Below are positions 5,775 through 29,598 of a DNA stretch of 47,500 nucleotides, in pieces. The stretch lies in contig KV908438.1 in assembly GCA_002005505.1 (NCBI GenBank), forward strand, positions 339,726 to 387,225. Direction: 5' to 3'. The number at the start of each line of letters is the position of its first letter. The first letter of the stretch is position 1. Under the pieces are notes generated by a model, which did no database searches, had not been told where the DNA came from, and saw nothing but the letters and a program-made list of their open reading frames with translations. The translations under genes and the position numbers were made by a program. The DNA is from Botryococcus braunii (lineage: Eukaryota; Chlorophyta; Trebouxiophyceae).

Positions 5775-6354
5775 GTACGTGAATTCCCTTGAGTGATGCA
5801 GGGACCAATGATTTGGATTGGCTTGGTGCGATTCCAACACAGGCGGCAACTTGTGAATGCGGAAAGCATGGGGTGCAGGAAAAGACAAAAACTCCTTTGG
5901 CAAGGAACATACCATTAAACCAGCAATCACGATCATGCTTGAAGCAAAGCCCTTATTGTCTAACCTGGACAATGAATGGAGTGTTTGGCACCATCATTAT
6001 TTTTGGCCTGTCTCTGAGGCTCCTTCTATTGACTGATCAGGCATACTTACCACCTTGTTAAGAGGTACACTGTCACATGCATGGAGAATTATAAACACCA
6101 TGGAGTATGGCCTCATAAGTGGCTGGCAACTAAATTCCATGCAAGGGCAGTGTTCATGGACTTGCGTGCCCGTCCTACGATCCGATATCTGATTTAGGTA
6201 GATAATGTACACTCTTGGATATGGGATGTATGGATCCTCTTGCAGCAGGTTTGCATCCTGAAGAAGAGATTTCTGACACCTGACCCATGACGGACATACG
6301 TATCTGTGTAAGAGCAGCGCGCATCGACCTCTTTATAAAGCCCCCTTATTCTTC
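5775..6354. other. Probable intronic or intergenic sequence
   Basis: There are no convincing exons, although several short stretches are flanked by GCAG sites (for example after 5815 and near 6247). The gene that begins at 4841 may continue through here. Confidence 0.25.
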
Positions 6355-6602
<248 letters not shown>

Positions 6603-8450: not shown

Positions 8451-8870
8451 AAAACACTCGAACAAGTTTCTTGAAACATAATGACATCATGTTCCCTCAC
8501 AGAAGAAGAATAATCATGGAGAGCAACCTTCGATCCTGTCAGGCCATTAAGAATCCAATCTAATTATCTATAAGATGGAAAGCCTAGTGTTCTCCGCACA
8601 ACCCTAGGCTTGACTCCCAGGAGGAGCGCTTGCAGGGCCAGTGTTATGATAGTGACAGAACATTTTGGTGCCTTTCCCTCAGAAGAGTAATAGTGGCCAG
8701 ATCATCGTCAATTACCAGAGAGAACAGTTAGTAGAATGAGTAATCAGTGGCAGAACCCAGGAGTTCTGCCAGAACCAATCTAGACCAATTGCACGGTAAT
8801 AAGGAGGGATGAGATAATCGGACACAGTTTGCTCGAAAGGCTATAGGCTCCTGGCTCGAAGGATTGAGGC

Positions 8871-9345
8871 ACTTGATTGGGACATCAAAAGCACTTCGGG
8901 TGTTTGCTACTTTACTGTTGCCAGTCAAGTCTCTTCACTCACAGACGACACTGCTTGTTTCTCTACGCACAACAAGAGTGTCGCCGGACTTAACACCCTC
9001 GTGCCGGGTCATACAGGTAAACTGCTGTCAAGACATCATATGAACATGAACAATGGTTTAGGAAGGGTCTAGATAAGGTATAACAGAAAGGTGTAATCGC
9101 TTAGCTCATCGGACATTGGTAATGCAGACTATCAGTAACGTTGTTGATAGAGTAGTTTGAATTGCCGAGTGACGAGAGAGAGCAATAAACATTGTAAGAC
9201 TTGATTGGGACATCAAAAGCACTTCGGGTGTTTGCTACTTTACTGTTGCCAGTCAAGTCTCTTCACTCACAGACGACACTGCTTGTTTCTCTACGCACAA
9301 CAAGAGTGTCGCCGGACTTAACACCCTCGTGCCGGGTCATACAGG
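8871..9345 (+). repeat. Long direct repeat inside the LTR (147 bp, period 328)
   Basis: 8871-9017 and 9199-9345 are identical over 147 bp, separated by 181 bp. The same pair recurs in the 3' LTR at 15467-15613 and 15795-15941, giving four identical copies in the element. Copy 1 is followed by a splice-donor-like ACAG/GTAAAC. Copy 2 ends in ACAG/GGAACG, which lacks GT but can serve as an acceptor. Confidence 0.95.
9079..9189 (+). promoter_or_regulatory. Possible LTR TATA box and poly(A) signal
   Basis: TATAAC at 9079 and AATAAA at 9184 lie in the spacer between the two internal repeats. If both are used, transcription would start near 9105-9115 and polyadenylation would fall near 9200-9215, so R would be about 100 nt and U5 would contain repeat copy 2. 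This is inferred from motifs only. Confidence 0.35.
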
Positions 9346-9369
9346 GAACGCCAAGCACAAAAGTTCACA

Positions 9370-9383
9370 GGTTATGGGCCCAC
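9370..9383 (+). other. Primer-binding site, initiator-Met half-tRNA type
   Basis: GGTTATGGGCCCAC directly follows the LTR CA end. Its reverse complement GTGGGCCCATAACC corresponds to the anticodon stem-loop of eukaryotic initiator tRNA-Met, not to the tRNA 3' end. Drosophila copia is known to prime from such an internal position with a cleaved half-tRNA. Confidence 0.75.
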
Positions 9384-9435: not shown

Positions 9436-9960
9436 ATGGCGCGAACACGACAAACAGGACGTATGAGCACGGGCAGAAGTAGACCTCATCCACCTCCACC
9501 TCCTCCTCCAACATACAACGAGCGAAGAAAGGCAGGAGGAAAGACAGGCCCACGAACGATAGACGAACGGGTATTCCTGGTGAAGGACTTCGTCCACGAA
9601 GCCCACGGACGAGGAGCACTTACCCCACCTCAGTGGTTCCGAGAGCGTTTCCCGATTTATCCAGCATATAAATTCACTGTTTGGGAAATCTCGTTCATCA
9701 ACGGAGAGCCTGGATACCTGACACGAGCAATTTTTGAGAGGTGCTTACAGCAAACAGGAGGTCCATCGCACGAAGCATATTGGACCGAGAAAGCGGCCTA
9801 CGCAGCGATTGAGCTAGCTTTGAGCAGCCTGGGAGACGATTTCATTGATCATCTGATCCTCTACGGCGAAGGACAATTTGAAGTGGACGAGTGGGAAACA
9901 GAAGACGACAGTGAGGACGAGGACGGCGACTCCAGACTGTCAGAAAGGAGCGAAGATTGA
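9436..9960 (+). CDS. Upstream ORF1 of the copia element, unknown function
   Basis: A 174-residue protein that I do not recognise. It has an Arg/Pro-rich start with a run of seven prolines near residue 20, then a globular-looking middle (residues about 40-145, with RTIDERVFLVKDFVHEAHGR and several Trp/Tyr), and a strongly acidic tail (DEWETEDDSEDEDGDSRLSE). Copia elements normally have a single gag-pol ORF, so this is an addition. It is in the same frame as ORF2: TGA at 9958, then five codons, then the ORF2 ATG. It may be a separate protein, the N-terminal part of Gag reached by readthrough, or a Gag-pol start cut by a nonsense mutation. Codon quality and acidic-basic organisation argue for a real protein. 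It would be made first from the genomic RNA. Confidence 0.7.
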   Translation: MARTRQTGRMSTGRSRPHPPPPPPPTYNERRKAGGKTGPRTIDERVFLVKDFVHEAHGRGALTPPQWFRERFPIYPAYKFTVWEISFINGEPGYLTRAIFERCLQQTGGPSHEAYWTEKAAYAAIELALSSLGDDFIDHLILYGEGQFEVDEWETEDDSEDEDGDSRLSERSED

Positions 9961-9975
9961 CAGGGTCCGAACAGC

Positions 9976-12900
9976 ATGAAGAAGAAGGGTACGAGCACCA
10001 GTGAAGCATCAAAGTCAGCGGACGAGGAATCAACATCAACCCCCACGCGAGAGCCATGCACACCCAGTACCTCCAAGGGTGAGGGAGACAGTCTTCCCAA
10101 GGTTATTGCCACGCAAGTAAAGGTCCATATCAAGCTATTGCGTCATGGTCAGAACTTTATAGTGTGGGATAATGCATTCACTGCTGCTAATAGTGCAAAA
10201 GGTTCCCTACCTGCTATTCAAGAAGCCATGCCTGGTACAATTCACAATGCTGCTGCTATGCTACTGATCTATGAATCAGTACCAGAAGAATGGTTGGGGG
10301 AACTGTCTAGCAAGCCATCTGCTTATGATGCCTACGTATTTATATGCAAGAAATTTGTTGGTGGACACAACCCTCAAGCCAATGCAGACTGGCTGAAGGA
10401 GATGGCAAGGGGCATGAAGAGAGGGGAAACTATCTCCCAGTATGTGTCCAGGATGATCAATCTGAAGAGCTGCCTGAAACGTAACGGACATGATCTCCTG
10501 GATGGTCATGTGGCAACCCAGATAGTGCAGGGACTTCCAGCAGCAGCCAACCCACCAGGATTGCTACCCACTGCAGTTGCTCAGCCTTTGGACCAGCTGG
10601 CAGATCTAATCTCCACCACAGCAGAGGCCTCAGGGTATAATGATGATGGGGAGCAACAGGCAGTGGTCATGATGGCTCAGCCTACCCCACCTGCCCCAGT
10701 AACTGCACCGACAGCATGTGCGCTGAACCAACCCAAGCAGCCAGCAGAGGGGGAAGCAAAGGGAGAGATAAAGGGGACCTGCAACTACTGCCACAAAAGG
10801 GGGCACTTCTGGCGAGACTGCCGCAAGAGGCAGAGGGATGCAGACACCCAGAGGAACGTAGTTGCAGCTGTACAGCAGCTAGCTGGCATGTGGCCTCAGG
10901 GCCAATTCCCTGGAGTACCTCAGCCACCCCCAACTGTGCAGCATGCCTTCCCGGGAGCTGGAGCATTCCCACTGTTGCATCCACCACATGGCCCTCCTTC
11001 TCCCCCTTCAGAAGGTATGCCATACGTAGTGTCCTACAATGTGCTGGACTCTCACTGCAATAGACAGTCCAAACAGTCTTGGCTTGTGGATAGTGGAGCG
11101 TCAGTGCACCTTGTGAACAGCCTATCCCTGCTGCATGCCCCCACTGTACATACCAAACCTATTCCCCTTCAACTTGCCACCTCAGATGCAACAGGAGGAA
11201 TCATTGCCACTGGCTCAGTCTGTCTGTTGTCCTCACTGCACGTACCACTGTGGCTGCATCATGTGCAGTGTGTTCCTTCAGCTACAACCAATATCCTGTC
11301 AGTATCTGCTGCGCTTCGTGATGGTGCCTGCCTCGCCACAGACGGTGTGGGCAGCTTTACAGCAGTGACAGGCCCAAATGGGTGGAGGATGCCAGTGAGT
11401 GCAGAGAATGGTTTGTATTATGTACACAACTGTGTGCCTGTGACTGCAAGTAAAACCCCATGCCCAGTAACAGCTGCCCTGAAGAGGAAAAGTAAGAAAA
11501 GCCTGAAGCACGACTGCACTAGACGGTTCCTGTGGCACAGCAGACTGGGACACCCTGGAGAACCATGGATGCTACGGCTGAGCAGCGAGCAATTGGTCAC
11601 TGGCCTGGACACACATCTCCCTCCTTGTGAAAAATGCCCCAAGTACTGTGAAGCCTGTATTGAGGGGAAGCATGCACGCCCACCGTTTGGGGAAAGTTCC
11701 AGACCTGCAGTGAACCCCCTTGACAGAATTCACATTGATACTGTGGGTCCTATATCTCCAGCTGCAATTACTGGAGAACGGTATTGGGTGACAGTAGTTG
11801 ATGAAGCATCAGGATGGAAAGCAGCTTTGCCAGTTAAATCAAAGGAGGTCATTGGAGCTGTTGTCAGGGATCTTGTCCTGTTTTGGCAGACAGAACGAAG
11901 GACCACTGTGAAATGCATTCGGTGTGACAGGGGGACTGAATTTGTTAATGCCAAATTCAAGGAGTTCTGTGCATCTCAGGGCACTAAACTGGAGATGTCA
12001 GCACCATATACCCCGCAACAGAATGGAATAGCTGAGCGAGCCAACAGAACCCTCAAGGAGCGAACCAGGACACTTCTCAACTTTGCAGCAGCCAGTCCCG
12101 TGATGTGGAAAGAGGCACTGGAGACAGCCTGCACCCTTGTGAACATGGGACCCAGCTCAGGCAGGCCTCTTACCCCCTGTGAAATGTTTATGGGATACAA
12201 ACCTGATGTCTCCCTTCTACGTACCTGGGGATGTCTGGCATTCGTGCATGTTCCAGACCAGCAGAGGGGTGTATTTGCTCCTAAGGCAGTACCCGGGATG
12301 TTCACTGGATATTCACCAGTGTCCAAGGCATATCGAATCTATCTAGGAGGAGGGGTCTGGCGGGAGAGCAGAGATGTGGAATTTGTGGAGCACATTCGGG
12401 GGGCCTCCAGAGTAGGACTACACATTCTGCCTGGACAGCCACAGATGTTTTCATATCCAGAAGGTTTGCACCTCCAGCAGTGGGATAGTGAACTTCCTGC
12501 TGATCCCATCCAGCCCCACACTCAAGATGGCAGGATCAGCATACCCAGCTCCAGCAACAGACCTGACAGCACCCTCCCAGAAGCCCCTGACGAGGCTGCA
12601 ACCGAGCCTGCCTGTCAGGGGAAGTGCCTCCTGGAGGAAGGTGCCTCAGATCTTGCCACTGGATCACCGGGAGGAACTCACCAGCTGGACCTGGACCAGT
12701 CCGGCATGCTGGAGACTCTTCGTCGAATGGCAAGAGGGAATCCCGACAGCGAAGAACACCAACGGTGTTTGGGGCGAGCACAGCAGACACTCCGAGCCCC
12801 GCAGCCTGACAACGAAGGCCAGCAGCCGGATGGATTGACAAGATCACAACGCTATGAGCAGCGCACTGCTGCTCGAGAGCTCCTGCTGGCACAGGAGAAG

Positions 12901-15219
12901 GGCGAGAGCTGTGAGCGAGTGGGGTTGACTGAATGTGACACCGAGTCACAGGGACCAGGGGAAGTGCAGGAAAGAGGTCAGAATCCTGAGAGCCCTGCAT
13001 CACATGTGAGCGATGAGAGGGGGACAGTCTTTGATCAGACTGAAAATGGTCCAAGCGAGCTGAGTGGCCTGGGTGGGACCTGCTCAGTACCTGAGGAAAT
13101 TGTTAGAGATGGGAGCTCTGTCTGTAATGCCCAGAGACAATGTGGTGCCAGCCACGCAAGTGTGGGCTATGCTTGTGAGTGTGCTGCTGGGCCTGCGCCC
13201 CAGCGCTCATGTTTGGCAGGGAGCAGACAGAGAGAGAGAGAGACATGGGCACAGTCCCAAGACAGACCAAGAGCTCATGCCATGCAGTGTGGTTCAAATG
13301 CCTGTGAGAGTCCAGACGGGACTGCAAACCGTCAGCCATGTGAGAGTGTGTCAGAGGAGGTGAATCGGAAGCCTAGACAGTGTGAGAATTCGCCCAATTA
13401 CAAGAGCTTTCCGAGAGGTACCTGTGTTTGGGAGGATGATGTGAGAGAGACTGGCAGCAAGCTTGAGAGGGCAAGTTGTGAGTCTAAGAGAGAGAAAGAT
13501 CAGAGAGGAGGGTCTGGATCACTCCCCACAGTCCCTTCGTGCAGTGCGGCGATATTCAGCGAAAGAGTAGTGGGTGACAGTGAGAGTAATAGTAAGCCAG
13601 ATCAGGGGAAGCACACTGGTGTGCGATTTGGGAAGATTAGTGTGCCTTCCAGTTTAAAGGAAGCCCAGCAGTCCCCACAGTGGGAATATTGGAAGGCTGC
13701 AATGCAGGAGGAGCAAAACTCCTTAGATGCTCATGAGGTGATGGAGTTTGTTCCAAGACCTCGTGGTCACAAAGTAATCCCTGTTCACTGGATTTTCTCA
13801 GTGAAAATGGATGCTCATGGTAATGTGCTCAGATTCAAGGCTAGGCTGGTGGCTCAAGGGTGCAGGCAAATTCCAGGAGTAGATGTAATGGAGGTATTCG
13901 CTCCCACCAGCAGTTATGGGTCTAGAAGAGCTTTGCTGTCAGTAGCTGCACAGGAGGGTCTTGAAATTCACCAGGTGGATGTCAAGACTGCCTTTCTAAA
14001 TGGTGAATTAGAGGAGGAGGTCTATGTCACACAACCTCCTGGGTTTGAGAATGGGGATGGGAACACTGTGTGTCGCTTGAAGAAGGCTCTGTATGGCCTG
14101 AAGCAAGCTCCAAGGGCATGGCATAAGACCCTTAATGAGAAGCTACATACCATGGGGTATGAGGTGTGCAAGAGTGATGCTGGGGTTTATGTGAAATGCT
14201 CTGTGGATGGAGGGAAATCCTTTGTGCTGATCTATGTTGATGATCTACTGATAGTTTCAAAGGGCATGAGTGAGATTGAGAGAGTGAAAGGGTTGCTGAA
14301 GCAGGAGTTCACCATTCATGATCTAGGAGAGGTGAAAGATTTCTTGGGCTGTCAAGTGATGAGAGATAGAGAGAAAGGGTTGATTTCTCTGAGCTGCATC
14401 CCCAAGATTGATGCCCTAGTGGAGAAATTTGGGCTGGATCTGGAGTCTGTGGGGCCTGACACCCCTATGACTAAGGATTTTGTGGCCACACAGCAACCTA
14501 TGTCTAAGGACAACAGTGCCAGCATTGGAGCTGGGAGTCCCTTACCACCAGGTCACAGATATTGTGAACTGGTTGGGTCACTGTTGTACATTGCCAACAC
14601 TACCAGGCCTGATATTTCCCAGGCTGTGGGAGTGCTTTCCAGGTATAGGATTACTCCTACCACTGCTCACTGGAATGAAGCAATCAGAGTGTTGAAATAT
14701 CTGATGGCTACCAGGGATCTTGTGTTAGTACTTGGAGGGAAGGACACAGAGCTGGAGGGCTTTGTGGATGCAGATTATGGTGGTGATCAGGATCACAGGT
14801 TTTCCACTACTGGTTACGTAATTCGTGTGTTTGGAGGAGCAGTAGTTTGGGGAAGCAAAAAGCAGTCTGCAGTGGCCACATCCACTGTAGAGGCTGAGTT
14901 TATGGCGGCAAGTGCAGCTGTCAAAGAGGCAAATTGGATGAAGGGATTCCTGGAAGAAATTGGTATTTCTCCATGGATTGTGAAGATCCACTGTGATAAT
15001 CAGGGATGCATCAATCATCTCAGAAATCCAGTGTTCTCTAAACATACCAAGCACATCGCAATCAGCTTCCATTTTGCACGGGAAGCTATTGCGTTGGGTC
15101 AGGTGGATGTAAAATACGTCCCTTCTGCAAGGAATGTAGCAGATATATTCACGAAGCCTCTGACAAGGCAGGTATTTCAGGGACATCGTGAGGCTCTGGG
15201 GTTGGCCAAGTTTTTGTGA
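9976..15219 (+). CDS. Copia Gag-Pol polyprotein
   Basis: 1747 residues, uninterrupted. Gag core at about residues 30-230, then a zinc knuckle CNYCHKRGHFWRDC (C269, C272, H277, C282). Protease motif WLVDSGAS with D372. GAG-pre-integrase HHCC region from WHSRLGHP (about 520) to the CxxC pairs around 551-563. Integrase catalytic triad D588 (HIDTVGP), D651 (CDRGTEF) and E687 (NGIAERA), giving the D,D35E spacing. RT from about 1225, with the fingers at VHWIFSVKMD, QVDVKTAFLNGELEEEVYV, and catalytic YVDD at 1420-1423. RNase H from about 1595 (FVDADYGGD, TVEAEF, HCDNQG) to the end. A linker of nearly 400 residues between integrase and RT is Ser/Glu/Cys-rich and low in complexity. All catalytic residues are present, so the copy looks competent. 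Protease and integrase act in the particle and nucleus. Expression is probably from one genomic transcript. Confidence 0.95.
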   Translation: MKKKGTSTSEASKSADEESTSTPTREPCTPSTSKGEGDSLPKVIATQVKVHIKLLRHGQNFIVWDNAFTAANSAKGSLPAIQEAMPGTIHNAAAMLLIYESVPEEWLGELSSKPSAYDAYVFICKKFVGGHNPQANADWLKEMARGMKRGETISQYVSRMINLKSCLKRNGHDLLDGHVATQIVQGLPAAANPPGLLPTAVAQPLDQLADLISTTAEASGYNDDGEQQAVVMMAQPTPPAPVTAPTACALNQPKQPAEGEAKGEIKGTCNYCHKRGHFWRDCRKRQRDADTQRNVVAAVQQLAGMWPQGQFPGVPQPPPTVQHAFPGAGAFPLLHPPHGPPSPPSEGMPYVVSYNVLDSHCNRQSKQSWLVDSGASVHLVNSLSLLHAPTVHTKPIPLQLATSDATGGIIATGSVCLLSSLHVPLWLHHVQCVPSATTNILSVSAALRDGACLATDGVGSFTAVTGPNGWRMPVSAENGLYYVHNCVPVTASKTPCPVTAALKRKSKKSLKHDCTRRFLWHSRLGHPGEPWMLRLSSEQLVTGLDTHLPPCEKCPKYCEACIEGKHARPPFGESSRPAVNPLDRIHIDTVGPISPAAITGERYWVTVVDEASGWKAALPVKSKEVIGAVVRDLVLFWQTERRTTVKCIRCDRGTEFVNAKFKEFCASQGTKLEMSAPYTPQQNGIAERANRTLKERTRTLLNFAAASPVMWKEALETACTLVNMGPSSGRPLTPCEMFMGYKPDVSLLRTWGCLAFVHVPDQQRGVFAPKAVPGMFTGYSPVSKAYRIYLGGGVWRESRDVEFVEHIRGASRVGLHILPGQPQMFSYPEGLHLQQWDSELPADPIQPHTQDGRISIPSSSNRPDSTLPEAPDEAATEPACQGKCLLEEGASDLATGSPGGTHQLDLDQSGMLETLRRMARGNPDSEEHQRCLGRAQQTLRAPQPDNEGQQPDGLTRSQRYEQRTAARELLLAQEKGESCERVGLTECDTESQGPGEVQERGQNPESPASHVSDERGTVFDQTENGPSELSGLGGTCSVPEEIVRDGSSVCNAQRQCGASHASVGYACECAAGPAPQRSCLAGSRQRERETWAQSQDRPRAHAMQCGSNACESPDGTANRQPCESVSEEVNRKPRQCENSPNYKSFPRGTCVWEDDVRETGSKLERASCESKREKDQRGGSGSLPTVPSCSAAIFSERVVGDSESNSKPDQGKHTGVRFGKISVPSSLKEAQQSPQWEYWKAAMQEEQNSLDAHEVMEFVPRPRGHKVIPVHWIFSVKMDAHGNVLRFKARLVAQGCRQIPGVDVMEVFAPTSSYGSRRALLSVAAQEGLEIHQVDVKTAFLNGELEEEVYVTQPPGFENGDGNTVCRLKKALYGLKQAPRAWHKTLNEKLHTMGYEVCKSDAGVYVKCSVDGGKSFVLIYVDDLLIVSKGMSEIERVKGLLKQEFTIHDLGEVKDFLGCQVMRDREKGLISLSCIPKIDALVEKFGLDLESVGPDTPMTKDFVATQQPMSKDNSASIGAGSPLPPGHRYCELVGSLLYIANTTRPDISQAVGVLSRYRITPTTAHWNEAIRVLKYLMATRDLVLVLGGKDTELEGFVDADYGGDQDHRFSTTGYVIRVFGGAVVWGSKKQSAVATSTVEAEFMAASAAVKEANWMKGFLEEIGISPWIVKIHCDNQGCINHLRNPVFSKHTKHIAISFHFAREAIALGQVDVKYVPSARNVADIFTKPLTRQVFQGHREALGLAKFL

Positions 15220-15237
15220 GGAAAAGGCAAGGGGAAG
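15220..15237 (+). other. Polypurine tract
   Basis: GGAAAAGGCAAGGGGAAG, with one C, overlaps the end of the gag-pol stop and abuts the 3' LTR. It is the expected plus-strand primer of reverse transcription. Confidence 0.85.
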
Positions 15238-15965
15238 TGTTATGATAGTGACAGAACATTTTGGTGCCTTTCCCTCAGAAGAGTAATAGTGGCCAGATCA
15301 TCGTCAATTACCAGAGAGAACAGTTAGTAGAATGAGTAATCAGTGGCAGAACCCAGGAGTTCTGCCAGAACCAATCTAGACCAATTGCACGGTAATAAGG
15401 AGGGATGAGATAATCGGACACGGTTTGCTCGAAAGGCTATAGGCTCCTGGCTCGAAGGATTGAGGCACTTGATTGGGACATCAAAAGCACTTCGGGTGTT
15501 TGCTACTTTACTGTTGCCAGTCAAGTCTCTTCACTCACAGACGACACTGCTTGTTTCTCTACGCACAACAAGAGTGTCGCCGGACTTAACACCCTCGTGC
15601 CGGGTCATACAGGTAAACTGCTGTCAAGACATCATATGAACATGAACAATGGTTTAGGAAGGGTCTAGATAAGGTATAACAGAAAGGTGTAATCGCTTAG
15701 CTCATCGGACATTGGTAATGCAGACTATCAGTAACGTTGTTGATAGAGTAGTTTGAATTGCCGAGTGACGAGAGAGAGCAATAAACATTGTAAGACTTGA
15801 TTGGGACATCAAAAGCACTTCGGGTGTTTGCTACTTTACTGTTGCCAGTCAAGTCTCTTCACTCACAGACGACACTGCTTGTTTCTCTACGCACAACAAG
15901 AGTGTCGCCGGACTTAACACCCTCGTGCCGGGTCATACAGGGAACGCCAAGCACAAAAGTTCACA
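15238..15965 (+). repeat. 3' LTR of the copia element
   Basis: 728 bp, identical to the 5' LTR except for G at 15422. It carries the same internal repeats, TATA-like motif (15675) and AATAAA (15780). Confidence 0.95.
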
Positions 15966-16030: not shown

Positions 16031-17467
16031 CTACCACTCACATTTGGATTTGGGCGGGCACACAGTTTTTCTCAATGCAGTAATATGATTAACTCGAAGT
16101 TCTGGTTCTACTGCAGACTGTGACCTAGTGACCCTATCTGATTTTGGTGGTGCAGGCATTGCGGATCTCCCTACCATACCAGACCTAGGTGTAAACAAAT
16201 GGCTGTCCGATAGGCACAAGAGTATCTGAATTGCCACTAATGTCAACATCTTCATCCTCATCTAAACCATCATCTATCTGAAGCATAAACGAAGTGGCAA
16301 GAACCTCCTTGAAGACATCAGCACCCGCAGCCTTGGCCTTGTTCTTCCACTTGTTGCCCTTCTTGCCACCTTTATCATTCCCCTCATCACCTTTAGGCAC
16401 ATTGGGGCCAATGTTGGCAGAATTTGACTGTGGAAGTTTTTCACCCTTGGCATGCTTGGTGATTAACAAATCAGCATCACACTGTGAGGCCCACTTCTCT
16501 AAATCTCCAAACGAAATAGGCTTAGCTGATACACTCCTATCCATAGTCAAGCGAGCTAACTTATGTGCGTGTAGCATGAGTGGTCTACACTCATCATTCA
16601 TAGAATTAATAATTTGCAGGAAGATCTCATCCGAGTCAGGAACGCCTACCCAATGGTCGTATCCAATATCTCGGATGTGTGCAAGGTATGATGTCGCCGA
16701 TTGATTCTTTTGTTGATACTTGCCTCGTAGTGCATCGCGATAAGAAGCATTATCAGGTTTGAAGACGTCACACAAGTCAGTAACATACTCATCCACATGA
16801 TTGTACACTTTTCTACCATACACAGCTTCAAAACGTCTAGCCACATCCTTATGAGACTCAGCAGCCTTACGCACAATCATTAACCTTTCAAGTTCGTTCA
16901 GTCCCTGACCTTCTTGCCTTAACGCACGGAACACTCTTTCCTTGTAGATCTGAATGTTCGCACCTTTTTGTAGAGGCACAATTGCCTCAGTCAGCATTTT
17001 CCTTCTCAAGGCTTGCTCATGCTGGGAGGAAGAAGATCTACTCGGCTGCGTCTGCTGACTGACTGAGCTGTTAACCCTCATGGCTGACGCGACAGCTGAT
17101 TTAATAACATCATGCAGACGAGAGTTGGCGTGACGTATGCTTCTATTTACAAATCTGGTAAAATTATCCATCAACAAAACAGTAACATCATAAGGAGCCC
17201 TGTGATTAACAGCAAGACATGCATCTGCGAATACAGAAGCAGCACCAGGAACACCTGTGTTGTCAAGTGAATTTAGTAACTGCGCAAAGAATGATGGGCT
17301 TCTACATTCCTGGATAACTCTGGTATGTATGCCCTACGCCGAGGTGCTTCAGGTGATGGAGGATGCTCTGACTCGTCTGGACTACTGTGATGTTCCCCAT
17401 GACGATCATCTAAACCTTCCATATCATCAGGGTGTGGTAAACTAGCTGTGGACGCATAATCGGCCAT
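16031..17467 (-). pseudogene. Gag-like protein of an unidentified retroelement, frameshifted
   Basis: On the minus strand a frame from ATG at 17467 encodes an acidic His/Pro/Ser-rich N-terminus and stops at 17273. The downstream frame is open from before that stop (through SFFAQLLNSLDNTG) to 16185, about 360 residues, so one frameshift separates the two parts near 17290-17320. The long part has a helical Gag-like core (ERLMIVRKAAESHKDVARRF; YRDALRGKYQQKNQSATSYL; YDHWVGVPDSDEIF) and a Lys/Gly-rich basic segment near the end. There is no zinc knuckle. A third short frame (16180-16031, KSDRVTRSQSAVEPE) may continue the element. No protease, RT or integrase is found, and the sequence is cut off near the copia 3' LTR. 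The Gag identity rests on the overall pattern and on a paralogous fragment 2.3 kb away. Confidence 0.5.
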
Positions 17468-19423
17468 GCTTGGCACTGACAGCTACGGAATAACTTGAAA
17501 ATCAATTACTTCGAAGGCTTTCACCTAACTTTCACACCTCCGGGCTTCCCTTCCCGGTTGTCCCCCCACAAACGCGCTCTACCCAGAATTTATGTCGCTT
17601 CAAAACACCTATGCATCACCTTCAGGCATCAATCATCAATGTATAGTTCACAGGATCTCACAAGCAAGAGATACTCCCAACGAAACACCAGTGACTTCAC
17701 AGATCAGGTAGCAGCTTCCTGCAGGACAATACTGACCTTAATTACTTACTTGGTTGTTGTTTGTGTTGTCTCCTACTCAAACTTTGTCACCAATCAGCAA
17801 AAGAACAAAAAGCGATGATGTCTACCCAAACGGAGTGTTGCTCGTGTCCGCCGGATCTTCCACCCTGTCTGCCCTAGAGGGCCGCTCACACGCACTCACT
17901 TACATCATCAGTAGACATCTTAAAGCATCGCTTATGTGCTCCCTGCCTTTCAGCTTAGGTTGACACGAGTAGGTAGTATGCAACCGCGACACAACAACCC
18001 GTTCGGTAATTCAGTCAATTGCCCCTCACCAGGTCTGACAGCCTTCCTATCATCTGTCAAGTCAAAGTTGCCATAGATTTGCTTATAATCGCACAGGGAG
18101 AACAAACTTGCTGCCGAAATCTCGGCCGATCGACCCAAAACTACACCGATATGCCTGAATAAGGTTGCGTTTGGTAGGCTGAAATTTATAAACTTTGTAG
18201 GTCTTGTGGATGTGAAAGCAATTACAGCTTTAACCTGGAAACTCTCTGTCAATTCAAGTCCCGCGCTCTATCAGGCACTCATCATAGACCGATCAAGGTT
18301 GCGATTTCGAGAACCACAGAGAATACTCACTTCCCAGCTTGATTAAACTACGTAGTTGATATCATCTGCTCAAATGTATGGCATTTGTACGAGTTATAGG
18401 ATACCTTCACCCTACACACTCTTGCAAGTACCCTCAATGCACGCGACAACACACAGGACGTCTCGTAGTGCGGCTACTCCCGCAGATACTTGTCAAGCAA
18501 ATGTCACTCGCCTAGTCAGGTTGCCAAGGGGTTACCTTACTCTTCGTCTGCACGACGTTGGAGGTGGATGGCGTTTACGACCTGCGAACTGGAGTCTAGC
18601 TACTCAACATCAAAATACAAACAGGAGCAATGAACGATTGACTTCCTTGAATCTCTTTACAATCAGTCTTGTTGTAGAGACCTTCTCATCAAACAACTCC
18701 CAAGTAAAGTCTGACGAGCGACTCTCCAATTGCGCCTCTAAAAGGGCGAACCTTGGATAGTCCGACGTACACACGTGAGGAGGTCTACTGCTAGTGTACA
18801 CGTCACTAGTGTACAAGGTTTTCTTGGAACAAGACTAAAGAACACCAGGACATTTGTGCATCTTATACATTTGGTTCGTTTGCTGCAACTCAAGGATTAT
18901 GCAGTATTGATGCTAGCAATTTGGTCAAAATGATTAAGGTACAAGTCAGTTAGTTATTTGTACCTCCAATTGTACATATGCAATACAGGTCTTCTAAACG
19001 AAGATCAATGTAACCTTTGAATCAGGACACAACTGTATAAACAAGACTAGCATCTTAAGTGCCTAGCATCTTTTTACCACAGTTGCCCGATTGTGAGGTG
19101 ACCTCTGCTTTAATAGCCTTTCCACAACGCCCCGTGATCAAGCTTGTACCTTAAGTCTCTTAAGATTGTACCTTATGTCAGAAAACCGTCCACATCTAAC
19201 TGTGTCTTAAGGTACGTTATGTTCACAATGGACCTATATCCTAATATTGTACACATGAAGATCACCTAAAGCACAAGGCATCCAATAATAATGTTGATAA
19301 CTCAACAATTACCATACTTCTAGTGATTGTAAATTGCTCTCAACATTTCGCGTTCCCGCGTGCACGATTTCTGGTGTGCGGTTAGGATAAGCTTCACTCT
19401 TAATACTAAATTGCTCTCGCATG
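17468..19423. other. No gene seen; AT-richer, possibly the 5' part of the gag-like element
   Basis: There are no convincing exons. The motif ACATAAGGTAC and its complement recur (for example at 19164-19179 with its 16-bp inverted partner at 20028-20043), and there is a short repeated palindrome around TAGTGTAC at 18790-18815. ORFs of 100-134 codons lack similarity or splice support. Confidence 0.35.
19350..19410 (+). repeat. Short dispersed repeat, copy A
   Basis: Contains GTGTGCGGTTAGGATAAGC followed by TTCACTCTTAA, preceded by a CCCGCGTGCACGATTT segment. It is the leftmost well-preserved copy. Confidence 0.75.
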
Positions 19424-19900: not shown

Positions 19901-20590
19901 TGTTGAGTTCTGAAATTATTAGTGAATGCCTTGTGCTTTAAGTGATCTTCCTGTGTGCAGTATTAGGATATGGGTCCATTGAGAACATAAGGTACCTTGA
20001 GACACGTTAGGTGGTGGACGCTTTCGAACATAAGGTACAATCTGATCTAGATTACACGTTTGTCGGGTGAACTCGTAAGGCTGCCCCACCAGTGTGAATG
20101 CCAACTGGTTGTGAAAGATGCTGGGCATTTCCAGATGCTAGTCTTGTCCAACAGTTGTGCATGATACTCAGCAGACAGTCGTACGGACTGCAGCGAGAGT
20201 AACTTCGTCTACTGACGACCTGTCTGCCGTGTACAGGTACGGTGCGGCAGTGTGTGTTGTATCATTGTTGCTATAGTGAGAGTGAACAAGCTTAGTGTAC
20301 CCTGTAGTCACTTAAACAGACAAGGAACAGTGACTGCAGGGAGTATAGGCATGTACTTGAACGTAGCCGCCTAGAGCTTTATCTAGTAATTGCTTGATCG
20401 GTGCTTGAGTCCAATACAATGATGTAACGGAACTGGTTGTGAAACATGCTGGACATTTCCAGATGCTAGTCTTGTCCAACAGTTGTGCATGATACTCAGC
20501 AGACAGTCGTACGGACTGCAGCGAGAGTAACTTCGTCTACTGACGACCTGTCTGCGGTGTACAGGATACGCCAATGCCCATAACCTTTCA
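19901..20590 (+). mobile_element. Candidate solo LTR of a divergent relative of the copia element
   Basis: Two 135-bp direct repeats (20103-20237 and 20431-20565, 3 differences) have a 328-bp period, the same period as in the copia LTR. The second ends 25 bp before a CA end (24 bp in the copia LTR), and the tails read ATACGCCAATG here and GAACGCCAAGC there. The proposed TG start at 19901 and CA end at 20590 are flanked by TTGGG and TTGGA, a 4-of-5 target duplication. As in the copia LTR, copy 1 is followed by ACAG/GTAC and copy 2 by ACAG/GA. Overall sequence similarity is low, so the call rests on architecture. Confidence 0.55.
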
Positions 20591-27734: not shown

Positions 27735-28461
27735 GTGAGTTGGCCTTCCGCATATGAGAGTGTTAGCTGTGCTTACAGGCAAGCTTGAGAACTGGCTTAG
27801 TTTGCAACTGGGAGGTGCTTAGAGCAGACATTTCTGAGCTGGTGGCAATTCCTTTCAGTCACCACACATAATGTATGCACTCATTGTTGTTGATGTGGCT
27901 TTACAGGGATATTTTTGCAGAACCCTAGTGTGTCCTCTACACATGCTGCAATATGTAAGTGTCCCTATTACCCTTGTAGCTTCGCATGTCTGAGGCGCAT
28001 GATGCTGAGAGGGATTCCCCAGTCTCTTCATGGGCCTGCATCATCATGAGCTGCAGAGTGTGCACTTGGCACTCTGCTCGGCAGTGTCAGGTTAGAAAAC
28101 ATGTTGTGCATGTTGTTCTTTGTAAACAGTGCCGGTTAATGTGCATGTTGTGCATGTTGTTCTTTTGTCTGGGTAGGCATTCATCACCAACTGTTATCAC
28201 CAACGGTTTCCGACAGAATGGGTATGCGTGTTGGGGTCAGATTTGGAAAGGGACGGCTTGTTTTGCTTCATCAAAGATATGGGGAGCCGAAATAGGGTAG
28301 CGCCCAATGTCCAAAGCTGGTTCCCTTGTCACTACTCCCACTCGTGAGGATCAATCAATCACCATCGATCCCCATGTTTTTGAGTTTGTGATAGTGTCCT
28401 GCCGGGCTTTTCAGAGGAACAGGTGCATGTTTTGTTACTAATTAGCATCCCTTCTCAGGAG
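27735..28461. other. Probable intron, no exon recognised
   Basis: Contains a TTGTGCATGTTGTTCTTTGT phrase repeated imperfectly at 28100-28165. Nothing else was recognised. Confidence 0.3.
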
Positions 28462-29505
28462 ACGTTTCCTGAGAAGAAATTATGGTTTAACGCAAAGCAC
28501 TAGAAGTTTCCTGAAGAGGAATGATGGTTCGACACAAAACACTAGAAGGTTCCTGAGACGGAATGATGGTTCAGCACAAAACACTAGAAGGTTCCCTGAG
28601 AAGGAATGTTGGTTCAACACAAAACACTAGAAGGTTCCTGAGAAGGAATGATGGTTTAACACAAAACACTAGAGGGTTCCTGAGACGGAATGCTGGTTCA
28701 ACACAAAACGGTAGAAGGTTCCTGAGAAGGTATGATGGTTCAACAGAAAACGCTAGAAGGTTCCCTGAGAAGAAATGCTGGTTCAACACAAAACAGTAGA
28801 GGGTTCCTGAGAAGAAATGATGGTTCAACACAAAACACTAGAAGGTTCCTGAGAAGAAATACTGGTTCCACACAAAACACTAGAAGGTTCCTGAGAAGAT
28901 ATTATGGTTCAACACAAAACACTAGAAGGTTCCTGAGAAGAAATGATGGTTCCACACAAAAAACTAGAAGGTTCCTGCGAAGAAATGATGGTTCAAGGTT
29001 CCTGAGAAGAAATGATAGTTCCACACAAAACACTAGAAGGTTCCTGAGAAGATATGATGGTTCAACACAAAACACTAGAAGGTTCCTGAGAAGAAATGGT
29101 GGTTCCACACAAAACACTAGAAGGTTCCTGAGAAGAAATGATAGTTCCACACAAAACACTAGAAGGTTCCTGCGAAGAAATGATGGTTCAACACAAAACA
29201 CTAGAGGGTTCCTGAGAAGAAATGATGCTTCAACACAAAACACTAGAAGGTTCCTGAGAAGAAATGATGGTTCCACACAAAACACCAGAAGGTTCCTGCG
29301 AAGAAATGATGGTTAAACACAAAGCAGCAGAAGGTTCCTGAGAAGGAATACTGGTTCAACACAAAACACTAGAAGGTTCCTGAGAAGAAATGATGGTTCC
29401 ACACAAAACACCAGAAGGTTTCTGCGAAGAAATGATGGTTCAACACAAAGCAACAGAAGGTTCCTGAGGAGGAAGGCTGGTTCAACACTACTACTAGGAA
29501 GGTTC
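28462..29505 (+). repeat. 42-bp minisatellite, about 25 units
   Basis: The unit phrase is TTCCTGAGAAGAAATGATGG followed by a TTCAACACAAAACACTAGAAGG-type half, with scattered substitutions and some 43-bp units. Because 42 is divisible by three, one frame per strand stays open. The plus frame gives a 14-residue FLRRNDGSTQNTRR repeat and the minus frame gives LLVFCVEPSFLLRN. Starts and ends of these frames fall at the units that change length. There is no evidence that either is translated. Confidence 0.9.
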
Positions 29506-29598
29506 CTGGGCTCTGACCTGCTCAGGAAAGCTTGCCTCTCCCGCTGATGCAAACCTTCTCTACCTCCGCTAAGGAGTTGTTTGTGCTTCGGTTTCCAG

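Follow-up and report, generated by a model that had tools for sequence, protein, structure and literature searches.

The window analysed here, i.e., the whole 47,500-nucleotide stretch of Botryococcus braunii DNA, contained a copia element on the forward strand, bounded by two 728-bp LTRs at 8642-9369 (5', TG...CA) and 15238-15965 (3') that differed by one mismatch. A primer-binding site (PBS; GGTTATGGGCCCA) was located directly after the 5' LTR at 9370-9382 (+) and a polypurine tract (PPT; AAGGGGAAG) directly before the 3' LTR at 15222-15237 (+). By its look, we take the PBS to be of the initiator-Met half-tRNA type, with that tRNA as the presumed partner; a search of the window for tRNAs found none. 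The Gag-Pol ORF (9961-15219, +, 1752 aa) showed a weak gag match followed by pre-integrase, integrase and RVT_2 in the copia order. Pfam matches along 9961-15216 were gag_pre-integrs (39.5 bits), SH3_retrovirus (73.7 bits) and RVT_2 (224.6 bits), whereas rve reached 30.9 bits against a cut-off of 32.6, its domain being split by the border of the searched piece, and gag 17.1 bits against a cut-off of 27. The integrase precedes the RVT_2 reverse transcriptase and the element thus belongs to Ty1/copia. Upstream of it, an ORF of 174 aa from its ATG (9436-9960, +, no Pfam match) had an acidic C-terminus and lay in the same frame as Gag-Pol, with only its TGA (9958-9960) between them, so that either read-through or a separate product is possible. 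Another ORF of 382 aa on the opposite strand (16185-17333, -) had no Pfam match and looked like the Gag of a different element.

The searched piece of the reverse transcriptase was closest, among the 120 matches listed, to unnamed metagenomic proteins; of the listed matches with an organism name, the first was from Chlamydomonas eustigma (49% over 84%), followed by a Tanacetum protein (41%) and Gonium pectorale (50%). No relatives of the reverse transcriptase were found in IMG/VR and GTDB contigs. Copia elements are abundant in the 176 Mb genome, in which a first look gave 2,658 RVT_2 candidates, 150 of these being scored. Matching 5-bp flanks (TSD) were present in 13 of the 14 two-LTR elements of the family of the window element (family 1). 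The exception was the window copy itself, whose flanks at 8642 and 15965 were GCCAG and CTGGG; lacking a TSD, it may be an inter-element recombinant.

A second sequence of 690 bp at 19901-20590 (+) is a solo LTR of a second family, with the near-TSD TTGGG/TTGGA. The first-pass annotation had left room for this stretch not being an LTR, but the match started within 2 bp of 19901 in 25 of the 29 other copies fetched, some copies were followed by the PBS GGTTATGGGCCCA or had a PPT just before them, and two full-length copies had TSDs (C470, CCATA; C374, AAAAG); overall, TSDs were seen in all three family-2 elements examined. The description of the two LTRs as unrelated in sequence did not hold, given that both families share the U5 start (GGAACGCCAA / GATACGCCAA), the PBS and the PPT, and intermediate families exist. 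An inverted fragment adjoining the solo LTR (19163-19307) was 86% like the start of the family-2 LTR. At the 5' LTR/PBS border of another family-2 copy (L072:1967-2012) the end of U5 perfectly complements the PBS (CCCATAACC...GGTTATGGG), with the same letters at the U5 end of other family-2 copies, and a strong hairpin was predicted across this border (-19.6 kcal/mol, z -4.4); none was predicted in the family-1 stretch tested (z 0.6). Such a predicted hairpin might hide the PBS or mimic a tRNA.

Repeat pairs and predicted signals inside the LTRs

As first reported, a 147-bp stretch of the copia 5' LTR (8871-9017) recurs identically at 9199-9345, i.e., with a period of 328 bp. The same repeat with the same period was present in the 3' LTR (15467-15613). 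Equally confirmed was the 135-bp pair of the family-2 LTR (20103-20237 and 20431-20565), with three mismatches and again a period of 328. We named the two copies A and A', and their order relative to putative expression signals was as follows: a TATA-like box, A, AG|GT, spacer, TGTAA, A', AG|G and U5. In the 5' LTR the TATA-like CTATAG, a predicted core promoter (8841-8846, +), lies 30 bp upstream of A (8871-9016, +), a predicted first exon whose left edge C|A would be the transcription start. The GT at 9017-9018 (+) belongs to a predicted 5' splice site (CAG|GTAAAC) found in 39 of 39 family-1 LTRs. Spacer and A' would together form an intron of 328 nt (9017-9344, +), with a predicted poly(A) signal at 9184-9197 (+; AATAAA at 9184-9189, TGTAA at 9193-9197) directly upstream of A'. 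This second copy (9199-9344, +) ends in CAG|G as the 3' end of the predicted intron, has a branch-like TTAAC at 9318-9322, and is followed by the 25 nt of U5 (9345-9369, +), where the predicted second exon starts. The corresponding positions in the 3' LTR (+) are 15467-15612 for A, 15613-15940 for the predicted intron and 15795-15940 for A'. In the family-2 LTR, A (20103-20236, +) ends GTACAG|GTACGG, A' (20431-20564, +) ends GTACAG|GATACG and TGTAA (20423-20427, +) is 3 nt upstream of A'.

Since the first copy ends CAG|GT and the second CAG|G, the period equals the length of a GT...AG interval, the predicted intron. The first-pass annotation had missed this probable nature of the period: it spans the interval between a 5' splice-site sequence that closes copy 1 and a 3' splice-site sequence that closes copy 2. 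It had also proposed a constraint on the period, and a strict constraint to 328 bp is not supported: the periods by family were 149, 321, 328, 329 and 331 bp, and single copies ranged from 323 to 344 (328-329 in 39 family-1 LTRs, 323-338 in 30 family-2 LTRs and 327-344 in 49 LTRs of the family-1 type paired by coordinates). The value of 328 in both window LTRs is best read as shared descent plus coincidence. Copies without the duplication, varied periods, or a non-LTR nature of 19901-20590 had all been listed beforehand as counting against the original claim; some copies do lack the duplication (see below) and the periods vary, but 19901-20590 is an LTR.

The position of TGTAA directly before A' places the predicted RNA 3' end in the first part of A'. 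According to the available passages of one study, TGTAA precedes the poly(A) site by a mean of 14 nt in Chlamydomonas and lies within 22 nt of it in only 12 of 26 sites (PMC3439250), and those of another give a peak near -17 in chlorophytes (PMC1868727). Among families 1 and 4, no poly(A)-tailed truncated copies were found that could map the poly(A) site.

A direct-repeat scan of 345 kb of sequence (overlapping loci included) and the self-alignment of ten LTR candidates revealed the same layout in nine LTRs of eight subfamilies: 1, 1b, 1c, 2, 2b (two copies), 2c, 3 and 4. The tenth self-aligned candidate, the fragment near 19163-19307, was without such a repeat. Several repeats did not look LTR-internal and were set aside: a minisatellite with a 42-bp unit (window 28378-29572), the 23.1 kb repeats, further repeats in L078, L018/L080 and L054, and pairs spaced 509 and 996/631; the pair with a spacing of 509 flanks a solo LTR with a single A. 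Across the nine LTRs, A measured 101-146 bp and the predicted introns 328, 328, 329, 328, 331, 331, 331, 321 and 149. Family 4 was counted as a copia LTR on the basis of coordinates at seven loci, where its copies follow RVT_2 on the same strand at a distance of about 1.19 kb (e.g., C62:524110/525299 and C340:138017/139211). Note that the nine LTRs are not independent: families 1, 2 and 3 have U5 in common and are probably homologous, which leaves perhaps two to four independent groups.

The repeat edges of the nine LTRs were also set blind to any motif, by the change-point in identity only. In 8 of 9 LTRs the blind right edges fell one base beyond AG|G, at CAGG|T in copy 1 and at CAGG|G or CAGG|A in copy 2; in 1b they extended 4 nt further through chance matches. 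TGTAA was found within 9 nt before the blind left edge of A' in 8 of 9 (1c has TGTGA), and the left edge of A coincided with C|A in 7 of 9, the edges of family 3 and 1c being 1 and 3 nt before C|A. The per-position backgrounds were 2.8% for the splice motif, 1.2% for TGTAA and 7.4% for C|A. In a second test, C|A was taken as the start and the AG|G closest to the end of the repeat as the splice point; six features then scored 50 of 54, compared with 2.8 on average and 15 at most for shifts of 4-100 bp. Two of the six are partly given by construction through this placement. The TATA-like motif (from a loose motif set; 8 of 9 LTRs) and the branch-like YTNAC 21-25 nt upstream of the acceptor (7 of 9) each reached the same count at some other shift and therefore add little. 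Also missing were the TATA-like box in the window family-2 copy and the branch-like motif in 1b and 1c; in L030 the TATA-like motif was TATAAAAG, at -31. Besides the nine LTRs analysed, two copies of A per LTR and the splice context were conserved in all 39 family-1 LTRs, a set that excludes one partial LTR (L063). In family 2, AG|G was kept in 22 of 25 listed acceptor contexts, and decay is visible.

Likeness of the two copies and LTRs with a single copy

The claim that the copies within an LTR are being homogenised was borne out, and this seems to occur at retrotransposition rather than by a slow chromosomal process. In family 1, A and A' differed at 5 of 5,694 sites in 39 LTRs, each difference being in a single LTR, and at each of three polymorphic sites of A both copies agreed in 39 of 39 LTRs (the LTRs of an element were each counted singly in all co-variation counts). 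Between family-1 copies, A differed by 0.8%, the spacer by 2.4% and U3 by 3.0%. Family 2 is older; in its 30 LTRs, fetched as loci of 40 scored matches, A and A' differed at 160 of 4,020 sites (4.0%) against 6.1% for randomly permuted pairs. Eight polymorphic sites agreed in 26-29 of 28-30 family-2 LTRs where 13-22 were expected, and A was no more conserved there than the spacer or U3.

A difference between A and A' common to both LTRs was found in none of 16 two-LTR elements (14 of family 1 and 2 of family 2), which indicates that A and A' were alike at insertion. Differences confined to one LTR, on the other hand, persist unrepaired, and slow chromosomal gene conversion as the main cause was ruled out on these grounds. 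Likeness at insertion together with the persistence of later differences argues against gene conversion in the chromosome as the main cause and for reverse transcription. Of the two causes originally offered, template switching during reverse transcription was therefore in the right area. The comparison of 92 donor and 71 acceptor places (from 284 and 223 exact-motif matches, respectively) revealed no array with three copies of A.

LTRs with a single A also exist. A 363-bp family-2 LTR (L017:2956-3318; TSD GTTAC) had one A joined to U5, and with this LTR as the query, which favours single-A copies, 21 of 40 scored loci aligned across the junction and 19 stopped there. Five more were read (L081-L085), and in one element (C173; TSD GTCTC) both LTRs were of the single-A type. 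In a tree of family-2 U3 plus A, the single-A rows were scattered: six rows needed 5 changes, as compared with 5.7 when labels were shuffled, starred branches forced at least 3 changes, and a single origin appeared in 0% of 200 bootstrap trees; support for the tree was weak, with 18 of 33 forks open. For family 1, the first 100 of the 223 acceptor places yielded 23 LTR pairs, spaced by 6552-6600 in 16 cases and by 6253-6268 in five (the 3' LTR being shorter by about the intron length), with two others.

Four of the six single-A LTRs read (L081, L082, L083 and L085, two of them from one element) had T or C at the A/U5 junction, where double-A copies mostly have G; one double-A copy (L040, C257:181661) also had T at the acceptor. 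Exact junction patterns occurred genome-wide at 47 places with G, 7 with T and 1 with C. The T/C junction is not simply explained by splicing, nor by recombination between A and A' in standard copies. Reverse transcription should yield two like LTRs per element, yet three elements seemingly have, by coordinates, two copies of A in the 5' LTR and one in the 3' LTR, in the same orientation each time (C16:776919/783184, C204:16516/22712 and C287:84388/90317), and this points to chromosomal deletion between A and A' as well. Both a transposing single-A sublineage and chromosomal deletion are possible.

Proposed splicing and regeneration of an LTR intron

We consider it likely, from the layout and the pattern of differences, that the LTR contains an intron, with A as the first exon and A' as a copy of A that forms the intron's 3' end, and that this intron is spliced out and rebuilt in each cycle of reverse transcription. 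RNA from the 5' LTR would start at A and be spliced from A to U5, by which the poly(A) signal would be lost from the 5' end. In the 3' LTR, cleavage and polyadenylation of the RNA would take place about 14-17 nt past TGTAA, at a point shortly after the start of A' and ahead of the 3' splice site; the spacer would then stay in the 3' end of the RNA, and R would correspond only to the first part of A'. Minus-strand strong-stop DNA copied from the spliced 5' end would consist of U5 plus A. Its first part of A would pair with the first part of A' at the 3' end of the RNA, and synthesis would continue into the spacer. The new LTR would be U3-A-spacer-A-U5, with the intron restored and A' replaced by A; the transcription start would define the left edge of A', and splicing the right one.

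Overwriting of A' by A in each cycle predicts the absence of shared A/A' differences seen in the 16 elements. Splicing followed by such a transfer would account for the identity at insertion, the left edge and the right edges together, and would allow any intron length. If the strong-stop DNA annealed to A instead of A', a new element with a single A and no intron would result. The single-A LTRs fit such a transfer, although A/A' recombination would look alike; with the same product expected from both, we dropped single-A LTRs as direct proof of splicing. The broader proposal, in which we place somewhat less confidence but which we still favour, is a class of LTR retrotransposons whose replication would depend on an LTR-borne spliceosomal intron enclosing the poly(A) signal, this intron being rebuilt each cycle by minus-strand transfer onto a second copy of exon 1.

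An unlikely alternative is that the RNA stays unspliced and A/A' is an LTR-internal duplication kept alike by jumps of the reverse transcriptase or by gene conversion. Strong homogenisation within LTRs is what it would give, and one-A LTRs are expected if a jump or an unequal recombination deletes a unit. Nevertheless, if jumping were only occasional, a shared A/A' difference would not be absent from all 16 elements, the unrepaired differences in one LTR are at odds with chromosomal gene conversion, and none of the places compared showed a triple array, which would be the reciprocal product. With unspliced RNA from A, transfer of the strong-stop A-spacer-A'-U5 would either add a unit or let A and A' continue as two separate lineages. 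The coincidence of the blind repeat edges with the splice motif and with TGTAA (8 of 9 LTRs each) would also be left unexplained.

Transcription could instead start at A' as in an ordinary LTR, A being a passenger or an enhancer-like repeat in U3 and the splice motifs coincidental. Repeats in U3 are common in LTRs, and RNA started at A' would equal the spliced RNA in sequence. We regard this as very improbable, considering that the TATA-like box and C|A belong to A and not to A', and that A, as part of U3, would go unrenewed and drift from A', a drift that was not seen. An intron gained by tandem genomic duplication of an AGGT segment or by an introner-like insertion, and persisting without regeneration, predicts the AG|G at both ends but is hardly credible. 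The repeated part covers only 101-146 of 149-331 bp, so the duplication is not of the head-to-tail type. Copies that were simply inherited would drift apart, and without restoration the intron would be lost from a spliced genomic RNA.

Comparison with known systems

The window element resembles Ty1/copia elements, such as Drosophila copia and Volvox Osser, in the integrase preceding RVT_2, the TG...CA LTRs, the PPT and a PBS that we take to be initiator-Met-half-tRNA-like, and its family in the 5-bp TSDs. An ordinary copia LTR has one U3-R-U5 series; here, in contrast, the block at the predicted RNA start is present twice, after a promoter-like motif and after a predicted poly(A) signal, with splice-site sequences at the ends. 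Intron loss is the classic proof of an RNA intermediate. If the proposed mechanism is true, promoter and poly(A) signal are kept apart inside a single LTR and an intron survives passage through a sense RNA intermediate, which would be a new answer to two old LTR problems, namely how to avoid polyadenylation in the 5' LTR and how to hold promoter and poly(A) signal in one repeat. The layout also offers a prediction of transcription start, splice sites and poly(A) site from sequence in any such family, and the A/A' pair is a clean case of concerted evolution with a testable cause.

A search of open-licence literature found no natural LTR intron or LTR-internal duplication of this kind; judged by that literature, the mechanism would be new if it is confirmed. 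As far as the available passages go, the leader intron in PMC5542766 belongs to an engineered vector and is not natural, and other matches concern short tandem repeats and a masking method. The motif order in the LTRs analysed here would fit that of foamy virus, with a predicted splice donor between a predicted RNA start and a predicted poly(A) signal, a likeness of layout and not of membership. Foamy virus genomic RNA stays unspliced, so that nothing needs regenerating. The major splice donor of the foamy virus LTR is located in R, upstream of the poly(A) signal, and the available passages of the source describe no duplicated exon (PMC3694450). The plant LTR elements Ogre, EVADE and BARE1 have functional introns for subgenomic RNAs, which the passages available from the source do not describe as located in the LTR or as rebuilt (PMC12786077). 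Penelope-like elements keep introns through transposition, and the cause proposed in the available part of that work is an antisense, self-primed template (PMC3846280). In the LTRs described here, by contrast, the intron would be restored by strand transfer, in which a spliced sense RNA serves as the template and a second copy of exon 1 as the target.
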